DNA of 64,000 nt from Methylomonas montana (lineage in GTDB: Bacteria > Pseudomonadota > Gammaproteobacteria > Methylococcales > Methylomonadaceae). The translations under genes and the position numbers were made by a program. Below, piece after piece: positions 19,184 through 27,397 of the stretch; within the stretch, counting starts at the first letter, position 1; each line of letters begins with the position of its first letter. Under the pieces are notes generated by a model. That model was not told the origin of the DNA. It did not search any database and worked only from the letters and a program-made list of their open reading frames with translations. The stretch is taken from NCBI RefSeq assembly GCF_030490285.1, contig NZ_CP129884.1, forward strand, positions 1,674,001-1,738,000, given 5' to 3'.

Positions 19184-19190
19184 TTGAATA

Positions 19191-24656: not shown

Positions 24657-24707
24657 TGGCAAATGATGGCGTAGGGTTTGTGAAATGCGGATGTTCATGA
24701 GAATGAT

Positions 24708-24737
24708 TTGCATTAGTTGTTGTAAGGGTTTTATACT
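24708..24737 (+). promoter_or_regulatory. Candidate promoter of the porin gene
   Basis: TTGCAT at 24708-24713 and TATACT at 24732-24737, 18 bases apart, 26 bases before the porin start codon. The -10 is a good match; the -35 matches at three of six positions. Confidence 0.4.
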
Positions 24738-24763: not shown

Positions 24764-26194
24764 ATGAAGCCATTGCAGTCGAAACTTAGTGTCGCTATCG
24801 CGACGATTGCCGTCAGTGCCGGGGCAAATGCCGCTGGTATTCCCGCTGAAAAGCCGCAAACCATGGATGAAATGTGGAAGATTATTCAGGCTCAGCAGCA
24901 GCAAATCGACAGCATGACCAAGAAGCTGGAAGCTGTGGCGCAAAAAAGCCCAACTGGCGAAGTCAGCAACTTGGAACGTAAAACCAATGTGCTGACCGAA
25001 GAGGTTGAGAAGCTTCGCACCGAATTGGTGGTGCCTGAGAAAGTCGAATACAAGAGTGCTTATGGTTTGGGCCCGGCAGCCTCCAAGGTTTATCAAGTCG
25101 GTAAGGGCTTGTCGATTGGCGGCTACGGCGAGGCGAATTATCAGGCGCGGGTTGACGACCAGGGTGGGCGAAACGCAAACGGGACTTTTACCAATCCTGA
25201 TAATACCGACGTCGAGCGCTTGGTCATCTATACCGGTTACAAATTCAGCGACAGTATTCTGTTCAATAGTGAAATCGAGTTTGAACACGCGTCTACAGGA
25301 AATAATGGCTCGGGTATTTCCGGTTCAGACACTGGTACCGTCTCCGTCGAAATGGCGTCCTTGGATTTCTTCATCGACCCGATGGTCAATGTCCGGGCTG
25401 GCATGTTGTTGATGCCGATGGGTTTCATCAACCAGATTCACGAACCGCCATTTTATTTCGGTAACAACCGTCCCGAAGTCGAGAGACGCATCATACCTAG
25501 TACTTGGCGCGAGAATGGTGTCGGTTTGTTCGGCGAGTTATTGCCAGGTTTGACGTACACGACCTATGTAGTCAATGGCATGAATGCCAGAAACTTCAGC
25601 GCTTCAGGTATTCGTGGCGGTCGGCAAGCGGGCGGCCAGGCGTTGGCGGAAGACTTGGCCTATGTCGGTCGCTTGGATTACACGCCGCCAATGCTGCCGG
25701 GTGTGATGGTCGGCGGTTCGGCTTACGTCGGCAATTCCGGGCAGAATCAGCTCTATAACGGTAGACAACTCGACGTGGCCACGCAGCTTTACGAAGCGCA
25801 TTTGCAATGGAAATATCGTGGTCTGGAATTCCGTACCTTGGGTTCCTGGGGGCATATCGGCGACGCGGCCTTGTTGAGTGCTGCACGAAGCACCACCATA
25901 GGCGAAGAAAACTACGGTTGGTACAGCGAAGTCGGTTACGACATTCTGCCGCATTTCTTGCACGATACGACTCAGTATCTGGCGCCGTTTGTTCGTTACG
26001 AACGGATGGATACTGTCGCTACAGTGCCGACAGGTCGAGTCGATGATCTGACCAGGGATGTAGAAATCTACCAAGTCGGCCTCAACTATAAACCCATTCC
26101 CAATGTCGTGATTAAGGCTGATTACCGTAATTTCACCCAAAAATCCGGCGCTTCTCCGGATGACTTTAACTTGGGTGTAGGCTTTATTTTCTAG
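24764..26194 (+). CDS. Outer-membrane porin with N-terminal coiled coil (phosphate-selective porin O/P-like)
   Basis: A 476-residue beta-barrel protein preceded by CTGGAG seven bases before the ATG. A signal peptide (MKPLQSKLSVAIATIAVSAGANA) is followed by a trimerising coiled coil (MWKIIQAQQQQIDSMTKKLEA, and a second one with TNVLTEEVEKL). The barrel starts at about residue 120 (GLSIGGYGEANYQ) and ends in FNLGVGFIF, with the terminal phenylalanine used for BAM recognition. The layout matches the porin O/P-type and related uncharacterised porins. The transported substrate is not known. Two inner-membrane/periplasmic genes follow 164 bases later. Confidence 0.85.
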   Translation: MKPLQSKLSVAIATIAVSAGANAAGIPAEKPQTMDEMWKIIQAQQQQIDSMTKKLEAVAQKSPTGEVSNLERKTNVLTEEVEKLRTELVVPEKVEYKSAYGLGPAASKVYQVGKGLSIGGYGEANYQARVDDQGGRNANGTFTNPDNTDVERLVIYTGYKFSDSILFNSEIEFEHASTGNNGSGISGSDTGTVSVEMASLDFFIDPMVNVRAGMLLMPMGFINQIHEPPFYFGNNRPEVERRIIPSTWRENGVGLFGELLPGLTYTTYVVNGMNARNFSASGIRGGRQAGGQALAEDLAYVGRLDYTPPMLPGVMVGGSAYVGNSGQNQLYNGRQLDVATQLYEAHLQWKYRGLEFRTLGSWGHIGDAALLSAARSTTIGEENYGWYSEVGYDILPHFLHDTTQYLAPFVRYERMDTVATVPTGRVDDLTRDVEIYQVGLNYKPIPNVVIKADYRNFTQKSGASPDDFNLGVGFIF

Positions 26195-26357
26195 AACGGC
26201 CGGGTGATTGCTGGATTGGCCCCGTCGGTTCATACGGCGGGGCGCGCCGGTATATAATGCTATATCTAACCCGGTTATCCGCGTAACGGCTTGGCAAATC
26301 GTCGGCCGGTCTCTATCATAGCCGCCGTATTATTCACTCCCTGGATTTGTCCAACTC

Positions 26358-26909
26358 ATGCTGATTTCAAAAACTCGTCGGCTTCTGCTGACGCTACTGG
26401 TTTTTTGTTTAACGATCGTAAACGTTGCCGCCGCTGTTTTTTATAGCAAGGACGAAGCGATGAAGCTTGCGTTCGGCGACGATGCTAGCGTGGAAATGCA
26501 ATCGCTGTTCCCCACGCCGGAAGAAGTGGCGCAAATCGAACAATTGGCCAAGGTCAAGCTGGAATCCAATCTGTTCAGTTTTTATGTCGGCAAGAAGCAA
26601 GATACCGTGATTGGTTATGCCGCCATCGAATCTCACACCGTTAGAACCAAGCCGGAAACCCTGCTGGTGGTGCTAACGCCGGAAGGCAAATTGCGTAACG
26701 TCTATACGCTGGCGTTTCACGAGCCGCCGGAATATCAGCCGCCGGAGCGCTGGATGGCGTTGCTGGCCAATCATTCCATCGAAGAATTGAGTCTGAGCAA
26801 GGATATTCAAGGCGTGGCTGGCGCCACACTCAGTACCCGCGCCGCGATCAACAGTGCCCGTAAGGTATTGGCGATTTACCAAGTTCTTATCCAAAACAAG
26901 TCACACTGA
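26358..26909 (+). CDS. Membrane-anchored or secreted FMN-binding domain protein
   Basis: A 183-residue protein with an N-terminal hydrophobic segment (RRLLLTLLVFCLTIVNVAAAV) that exports or anchors it. The rest is an FMN-binding domain like that of RnfG/NqrC. The motif VAGATLSTRAAI at about 152-163 corresponds to the S/T-G-A-T-S/T site where FMN is attached covalently to threonine. The serine that usually precedes GAT is alanine here. The stop overlaps the start of the next gene by one base, so the two proteins probably work together. Full Rnf or Nqr genes are not present, so it is a stand-alone flavin electron carrier. Confidence 0.82.
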   Translation: MLISKTRRLLLTLLVFCLTIVNVAAAVFYSKDEAMKLAFGDDASVEMQSLFPTPEEVAQIEQLAKVKLESNLFSFYVGKKQDTVIGYAAIESHTVRTKPETLLVVLTPEGKLRNVYTLAFHEPPEYQPPERWMALLANHSIEELSLSKDIQGVAGATLSTRAAINSARKVLAIYQVLIQNKSH

Positions 26910-27397
26910 TGCGTTTTTTTGTTACCGGCGAGCAGAATCGCCAGCTGCTGATCAATACCTTGATCTTGATGTTCTTGGTCTATGTGGCCTTGTTGTGGGT
27001 CAGCAACGGCCTGATGTATTTTCATAAAATGAATCTCACCCCTGAGTCGGTAGTTTCTTATTATTTAGGGAATGAGCAAGAGTTTAACGAGCCGAAAAGC
27101 TATCAAAGCCTGCTGGAAGTCACGCATTTTCATTTGTTTGCGATGGGCATGCTGGTATTGACGCTGACCCATCTGATGCTGATGACCTCGCTGCCAACCC
27201 TGATGAAAGTCTGGATTAGCGCGATAGTTTATGCGGCGGCAATCGCCGATGAAGCAGCCGGTTGGTTGGTGCGTTTTGTTCATCCAGGATTTGCATATTT
27301 TAAAATAGCCGCATTTTTATCGCTGGAAACTTCCTTGTTCCTGCTAATCGTCATCGTCGGTCTGTCGCTGATTGAATCACGCCGGCACTTGCGCTAA
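26909..27397 (+). CDS. Four-helix membrane protein, putative partner of FMN-binding protein
   Basis: A 162-residue inner-membrane protein with four predicted transmembrane helices: about 14-32 (LINTLILMFLVYVALLWVS), 73-94, 102-116 and 132-156. Histidines at the start and end of helix 2 (EVTHFHLFAMGM ... TLTHLML) and one in FVHPGF could ligate a haem, but no known haem motif is present. It is translationally coupled to the FMN-binding gene. A role as a membrane electron acceptor or donor for the flavoprotein is inference. The family is not recognised. Confidence 0.7.
   Translation: MRFFVTGEQNRQLLINTLILMFLVYVALLWVSNGLMYFHKMNLTPESVVSYYLGNEQEFNEPKSYQSLLEVTHFHLFAMGMLVLTLTHLMLMTSLPTLMKVWISAIVYAAAIADEAAGWLVRFVHPGFAYFKIAAFLSLETSLFLLIVIVGLSLIESRRHLR

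Follow-up and report, generated by a model that had tools for sequence, protein, structure and literature searches.

A 64,000-nucleotide stretch of Methylomonas montana DNA (contig NZ_CP129884.1, positions 1,674,001 to 1,738,000; hereafter the window) carries three + strand genes at window positions 24764-27397, which code for a porin, an FMN_bind protein and a four-helix membrane protein. It is proposed here, with a probability of about 0.6, that this triad is an iron-repressed ferric reductase spanning the cell envelope. Electrons would pass from quinol via the four-helix protein to a covalently bound flavin mononucleotide (FMN) and on to a ferric species, after which the iron would enter through Feo. 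Since the triad stands behind an apparent iron-repressor switch, its probable task is to reduce iron before uptake, while the metal is still outside the cell interior. An initial annotation of this DNA had suggested a small trans-envelope system for electron transfer by flavin or for the reduction of metal or haem. In sister operons, PepSY or b561-like proteins take the place of the membrane protein, which supports this idea; the metal, for which the annotation had no evidence, is now narrowed towards iron by a Fur-box-like element upstream of the porin. The triad is a concrete three-gene candidate for extracytoplasmic ferric reduction in many Methylococcales. In the literature searched, which covered few subscription journals, no description of a porin-FMN-four-helix triad was found.

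The gene set, its linkage and the FMN protein

The porin gene (24764..26194, 476 amino acids) is followed by the FMN gene (26358..26909, 183 amino acids) and the membrane-protein gene (26909..27397, 162 amino acids). As first described, the last two overlap: the stop codon TGA of the FMN gene (26907-26909) and the ATG of the membrane-protein gene (26909) have one base in common. Read from its sequence, the porin seems to have a signal peptide; its N-terminal part is a coiled coil and its last residue is Phe, in keeping with its earlier designation as a coiled-coil porin of the outer membrane. It gives no Pfam match over the cut-off, and its profile found nothing among solved structures at E below 0.18; its distant relatives belong to Porin_O_P. 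No CxxCH motif is present in any of the three triad proteins.

The occurrence of the three families was followed in 151 Methylococcales genomes. Strong hits were taken at 150 bits or more for the FMN protein, 98 for the membrane protein and 419 for the porin, and the weaker matches of 16 of 108 FMN genomes, 21 of 116 membrane-protein genomes and 23 of 117 porin genomes were left out. The FMN protein was thus found in 92 genomes, the membrane protein in 95, the porin in 94 and all three in 92. Every genome with a strong FMN hit carries the other two as well, so the linkage on which the initial annotation had turned is found to be conserved. The genomes are related, and the Fisher values of this co-occurrence are therefore descriptive only. 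In 75 of the 92 genomes, the porin is no more than 1.5 kb away (66 on the same strand, 9 on the opposite one); of the remaining porins, five are at 1.5-4 kb, four are further off and eight are on another contig. The exceptions are G061, with a broken FMN gene and no porin hit, G104 and G092, each with a fragmented membrane gene, and G101, a genome that is 78% complete and has the porin alone. The 16 genomes with a weak FMN match comprise G061 and 15 with a distant porin type. Within the window's own genus the triad is patchy, since only 10 of the 19 sampled genomes have the set and nine lack it.

Decaying copies of the module were seen at loci L107 (in G061), L108 (G092) and L109 (G104), either as a broken FMN gene with the membrane gene left or as membrane-protein fragments beside the porin, a MauG-like gene or a TonB receptor. 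In a Bathymodiolus symbiont (L077, 520-1594), the FMN gene is duplicated in tandem, apparently only in part.

The FMN protein matches FMN_bind (PF04205 of Pfam) with 24.4 bits against a cut-off of 22, over residues 101-171. Its predicted flavinylation site reads IQGVAGATLS, in which none of G155, A156, T157, L158 and S159 varies among the 24 aligned orthologues, and its description as an exported FMN-binding protein with a GAT-type site holds. The AlphaFold2 model (mean predicted local distance difference test, pLDDT, 90.6) has an RnfG/NqrC-like fold: ranks 1-18 of a Foldseek search against the PDB are all RnfG or NqrC, 12 of them at E<=0.001. A profile search with the protein likewise found RnfG of Acetobacterium (E 1.1e-5). 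ApbE-type flavin transferases, on which the earlier reading depended, are encoded at two loci elsewhere in the 4.63-Mb, single-contig genome (277 and 251 bits), and the target threonine is invariant; the protein probably carries a flavin, predicted to be attached covalently at T157. The genome holds three FMN_bind loci, along with an Rnf cluster at 3.51 Mb. No Rnf or Nqr subunits were seen among the open reading frames of the window between 20 and 33 kb, and the earlier statement that none is nearby stands because the organism's own Rnf cluster sits 1.8 Mb away from the triad.

The four-helix protein and its place in sister operons

The model of the membrane protein (pLDDT 82.7; range of five models, 66.7-82.7) has four long helices, at residues 3-41, 65-91, 97-123 and 126-161. 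The second contains H73, H75 and H88, which agrees with the several helix-2 histidines noted at the outset. All 25 alignment rows share H39, H73, H75, H88, E70, E115, W119, K100, K132 and E140; an outlying family (L161), compared by eye, keeps H73, H75, H88 and E115 but has another residue in place of H39. No Pfam or NCBIfam model matches the protein over its cut-off, and PepSY (PF03929/PF16357), DUF4405 and b561 models give no match at E<=1.

Sister operons were then compared. The 15 further Methylococcales genomes with a weak FMN match only all carry a porin of 31-36% identity. This distant porin type occurs in 22 genomes, and of the ten loci opened (L099-L106, L110 and L111), nine contain PepSY_TM; L111 reaches the contig end. 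The operon of L100 scores 41 bits with FMN_bind and 51 bits with PepSY_TM, and its porin, about 32% identical to that of the window, scores 46 bits with Porin_O_P (cut-off 20.9). On a wider scale, an FMN match was obtained in 80 of 369 Gammaproteobacteria genomes, and the best 30 FMN loci of that search were typed, the types being checked with Pfam in L100 and L169. Fifteen of these loci are porin-FMN-PepSY_TM. Five are porin-FMN-four-helix, namely the window's own genome, another member of Methylococcales and three (L114-L116) from one Gammaproteobacteria family outside Methylococcales. Two are porin-FMN-ApbE-b561-like, three have another barrel with FMN and ApbE (two of them with a b561-like gene), two are FMN-ApbE-b561-like and three have none of these partners. 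ApbE is found in seven of the best 30 loci, six of which also have a b561-like protein; that of L169 scores 27.5 bits with b561 and 18.2 bits with DUF4405, both below the cut-off. Because PepSY or b561-like proteins replace it in sister operons, the four-helix protein occupies the slot of known or likely membrane cytochromes and electron donors. These findings indicate a widespread porin-FMN-PepSY operon and, in place of its PepSY reductase, an undescribed membrane protein superfamily.

Two other clusters were observed in these loci. A second FMN cluster of L100 (2745-6293) contains, partly by eye, a barrel-like protein, an FMN protein, a small b561-like protein (below cut-off), PepSY_TM, a second barrel-like protein and a Rieske-like protein. 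In L165 (4133-10951), a barrel-FMN-ApbE-four-helix set adjoins imelysin-, di-haem- and DUF1513-like genes of iron type, again as judged by eye.

Profile searches also gave remote relatives of the four-helix protein. All 16 of the first set examined keep the HxH and an Asp at 114; 13 have a CxxCH and three a Met/His-rich loop. Each of 12 further relatives, taken from weak profile matches, has one CxxCH, so that one CxxCH is present in 25 of the 28 relatives read. No NCBIfam model matches any of three relatives tried. The relative in the organism's own genome (L094, 1107-4324) is of the c-haem type and clusters with a COX1-like oxidase and cytochrome c, as does that of L204. In L199 (1262-5923), a c-haem relative comes directly after a gene for a 736-residue multihaem cytochrome and a 533-residue open reading frame without a Pfam match. 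The relatives of L197 and L203 have a neighbouring gene with a single CxxCH, and the other eight of the 12 further relatives show, by eye, no evident redox neighbour among the printed open reading frames.

The arrangement in L199 recalls the published porin-cytochrome conduit of Methylobacter, one component of which is a monohaem protein that crosses the inner membrane with four helices (PMC13322032). This protein is a possible relative, likened by description only. The Met/His-rich relatives of L173 (5717-7011), L174 (2061-5759) and L175 (5667-7006) pair with a small exported protein without GAT; its resemblance to the FMN protein is weak (hhalign probability 40%) and confined to the N-terminal half. 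L173 and L174 adjoin a DUF4198-type gene (by Pfam and by eye, respectively), and L175 adjoins a CbiM-type Ni/Co cluster. The odds are judged even that the four-helix protein is the founder of a novel type of electron carrier in the membrane, an HxH...D superfamily with free-standing, c-haem and Met/His-rich members to which no Pfam or NCBIfam model was found to correspond. In methanotrophs, the four-helix protein would then replace the PepSY reductase in a Fur-controlled porin-flavoprotein operon, provide one more path through the membrane to flavins outside the cytosol and be a candidate Methylomonas ferric reductase.

The Fur-box-like element and a proposed route for iron

The Fur-box-like element, ATGAGAATGATTTGCATT (24697..24714, + strand), begins 67 bp upstream of the porin start and fits 13 of 16 positions of the Fur consensus. 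In most lineages examined, such an element is found about 65-85 bp upstream of the porin, and its position is kept across genera. Compared with shuffles, it is significant in 12 of 25 porin upstream regions and in 1 of 28 FMN upstream regions, near-identical Methylomonas rows being counted separately. After dereplication, which took out seven near-duplicates, 13 of 18 porin upstream regions score at least 12/16, as against 5 of 91 upstream regions of other genes at the same loci. Judged by these counts, the element belongs with the porin start and not with the FMN start, and it is a conserved candidate site for Fur binding. Among related porin operons, the best site reaches p<0.05 in 10 of 19; this test left out 9 of 28 loci, whose upstream sequence was short or truncated, and counted one genome twice (L122 and L169, neither significant).

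Within the 64-kb window, two sites reach 11/14, the porin element and one at 19186. An 18-base pattern matches the genome exactly at two places, before this porin and before a small open reading frame followed by a tonB gene, with 0 matches of the reversed control. With at most one mismatch it matches at 4 places, again with 0 control matches; the one-mismatch places lie between ECF-sigma and FecR-like genes and before a NuoE-like gene without an evident iron link. The genome encodes Fur (156 bits) and FeoB, which is common in the sampled genomes. Siderophore-type TonB-dependent receptors adjoin the module in L081 and what remains of a copy in L109; their scores, 206 and 219 bits, fall slightly short of the cut-off of 223.5.

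Published work points in the same direction. Both Fur and the reduction of iron have been connected with PepSY-like flavinylation clusters (PMC8238504, Meheust et al. 2021), and HiuB (PMC12424826) and VciB (PMC12004947) are iron examples. In a study of Methylomonas sp. DH-1, the authors infer that reduction of the supplied Fe3+ takes place outside the cytoplasm and precedes uptake by Feo; they term methanotroph iron uptake poorly characterised, and the accessible text names no reductase (PMC13274454).

On this basis, a route for iron can be suggested. When iron is low, Fur would leave the element upstream of the porin, and a small ferric species, a chelate or a flavin shuttle may get to the periplasm via the porin. 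The four-helix protein would draw electrons from the quinol pool, and a b-haem or another cofactor on its invariant histidines would probably carry them. They would then go to the FMN that ApbE is predicted to attach covalently at T157. The flavin would reduce the ferric iron, and FeoB would import it in the ferrous form.

A candidate -10 element, TATACT (24732..24737, + strand), was read downstream of the Fur-box-like element. It or a similar hexamer is also present in several relatives, and it was not among the matches of a consensus promoter scan. Between the porin and FMN genes, such a scan gave promoter-like matches at 26229-26258 and 26291-26319. The promoter-like matches in this region total 3, equal to shuffles (mean 3.2), and the region has no unusual RNA fold (z -0.76).

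Alternative functions and known systems

Several points weigh against ferric reduction by the triad. The motif had already been spotted by eye when the tests were made, and positions at which the window site deviates from the consensus are unconstrained in the genome patterns. The patterns were composed after the site had been seen and, therefore, the tonB match is their independent part. A looser 15-base pattern gave seven matches, which fall at five places, while the control gave two; at three of the five, no neighbouring gene has an evident link to iron. The motif is weak (10/16) in L084, L091 and L092, and 9 of the 19 related porin operons are without a significant site. FeoB has no association with the triad (p=0.82), at least 14 of the 92 triad genomes being among the 22 without FeoB, and it is therefore taken as neither support nor refutation.

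Further points of this kind concern the proteins. The published flavinylation motif is [S/T]GA[S/T] (PMC8238504), from which the AGAT of the window, with Q at -6, departs. Ala precedes GAT in 7 of 24 orthologues, including that of the window, and position -6 from T157 is Gln in 14 (the window too) and Asp in 10. ApbE lies outside the triad operon. However, two relatives with ApbE in the operon (L167 and L169) read IQNISGAT, so that they too have Gln at -6. The membrane model found generic helical bundles only in the PDB (best Foldseek E 0.08; best VIA-align Z 10.6), and these uninformative matches are not evidence for a new fold. The triad may be co-transcribed, although candidate promoters lie between the porin and FMN genes.

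Among the other functions considered, the foremost, itself unlikely, is that the module dumps electrons on external acceptors such as ferrihydrite or humics under hypoxia, as a form of respiration in which reduced flavin or a shuttle would pass via the porin. The trans-envelope layout would suit such a role, and methanotroph reduction of Fe(III) minerals is reported as context in PMC13322032. The four-transmembrane, inner-membrane monohaem cytochrome of the Methylobacter conduit (PMC13322032) resembles the c-haem relatives, by description only, and the relative in L199 comes after a multihaem gene. However, a Fur-box-like element suits nutrition better than respiration, the porin relatives are Porin_O_P, and the triad is without CxxCH. 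Behind this comes a module for copper reduction or acquisition, which is also improbable. The di-haem MauG/MbnH-like gene beside the porin in L074, L081, L084, L085, L087 and L108 (MbnH-family model below cut-off) could indicate copper instead of iron, and the PepSY_TM protein CrpH is suggested to reduce copper in the periplasm (PMC13038864). Yet only 13 of the loci examined match this gene (some of them duplicates, two at only 32-36% identity), none of them from the window's own genome. None was noticed by eye among the window's open reading frames of 20-33 kb, and the element upstream of the porin resembles a Fur box. The MauG/MbnH-like gene was rejected as a constant fourth component of the module, as it is present in a subset of loci only.

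No better are the chances that the four-helix protein binds or transports a metal while the electrons of the FMN protein come from elsewhere. The HxH...D arrangement could hold a metal, and three remote relatives have Met/His-rich loops near DUF4198-type (L173, L174) or CbiM-type (L175) genes. The position of the protein, which is that of PepSY or b561-like proteins, argues for electron transfer instead, as do the one-base overlap with the FMN gene and the c-haem CxxCH of most relatives read. That the porin and the FMN/membrane pair are simply unrelated neighbours is very improbable: the porin is more than 4 kb away or on another contig in 12 of the 92 genomes, but the three co-occur in 92 of 92, and the porin linkage is kept in the PepSY versions of other families too.

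Ferric reduction for iron uptake is the preferred reading, and its closest counterparts are the PepSY-like iron-reductase clusters (PMC8238504; VciB, FoxB and HiuB). Like the triad as proposed here, these combine an extracytosolic flavoprotein with an inner-membrane reductase, include Fur-repressed examples and have a role in iron. In the porin-FMN-PepSY operons, two of the three genes are homologous to those of the triad. The triad differs in that its membrane protein is not PepSY_TM and falls into no recognised family, and the word 'porin' is absent from the text of PMC8238504. The flavinylation-associated cytochromes of the DUF4405/b561-like type (PMC11334425) are similarly small membrane proteins with conserved histidines, and L169 has such a protein together with ApbE, a porin and a homologous FMN protein. 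The window protein, in contrast, matches neither model, and haem b at its histidines is a prediction.

With RnfG and NqrC, the FMN protein of the triad has in common the FMN_bind fold and the GAT site; unlike them, it is small and exported and has no adjacent Rnf or Nqr subunits, the organism's own Rnf being encoded elsewhere. The MtrAB/PioAB conduits, as described for Methylobacter (PMC13322032), likewise form a proposed trans-envelope route in Methylococcales and possess a four-helix inner-membrane component. The triad has neither a haem motif nor a multihaem partner, its porin is related to Porin_O_P, and a flavin would take the place of the cytochromes.

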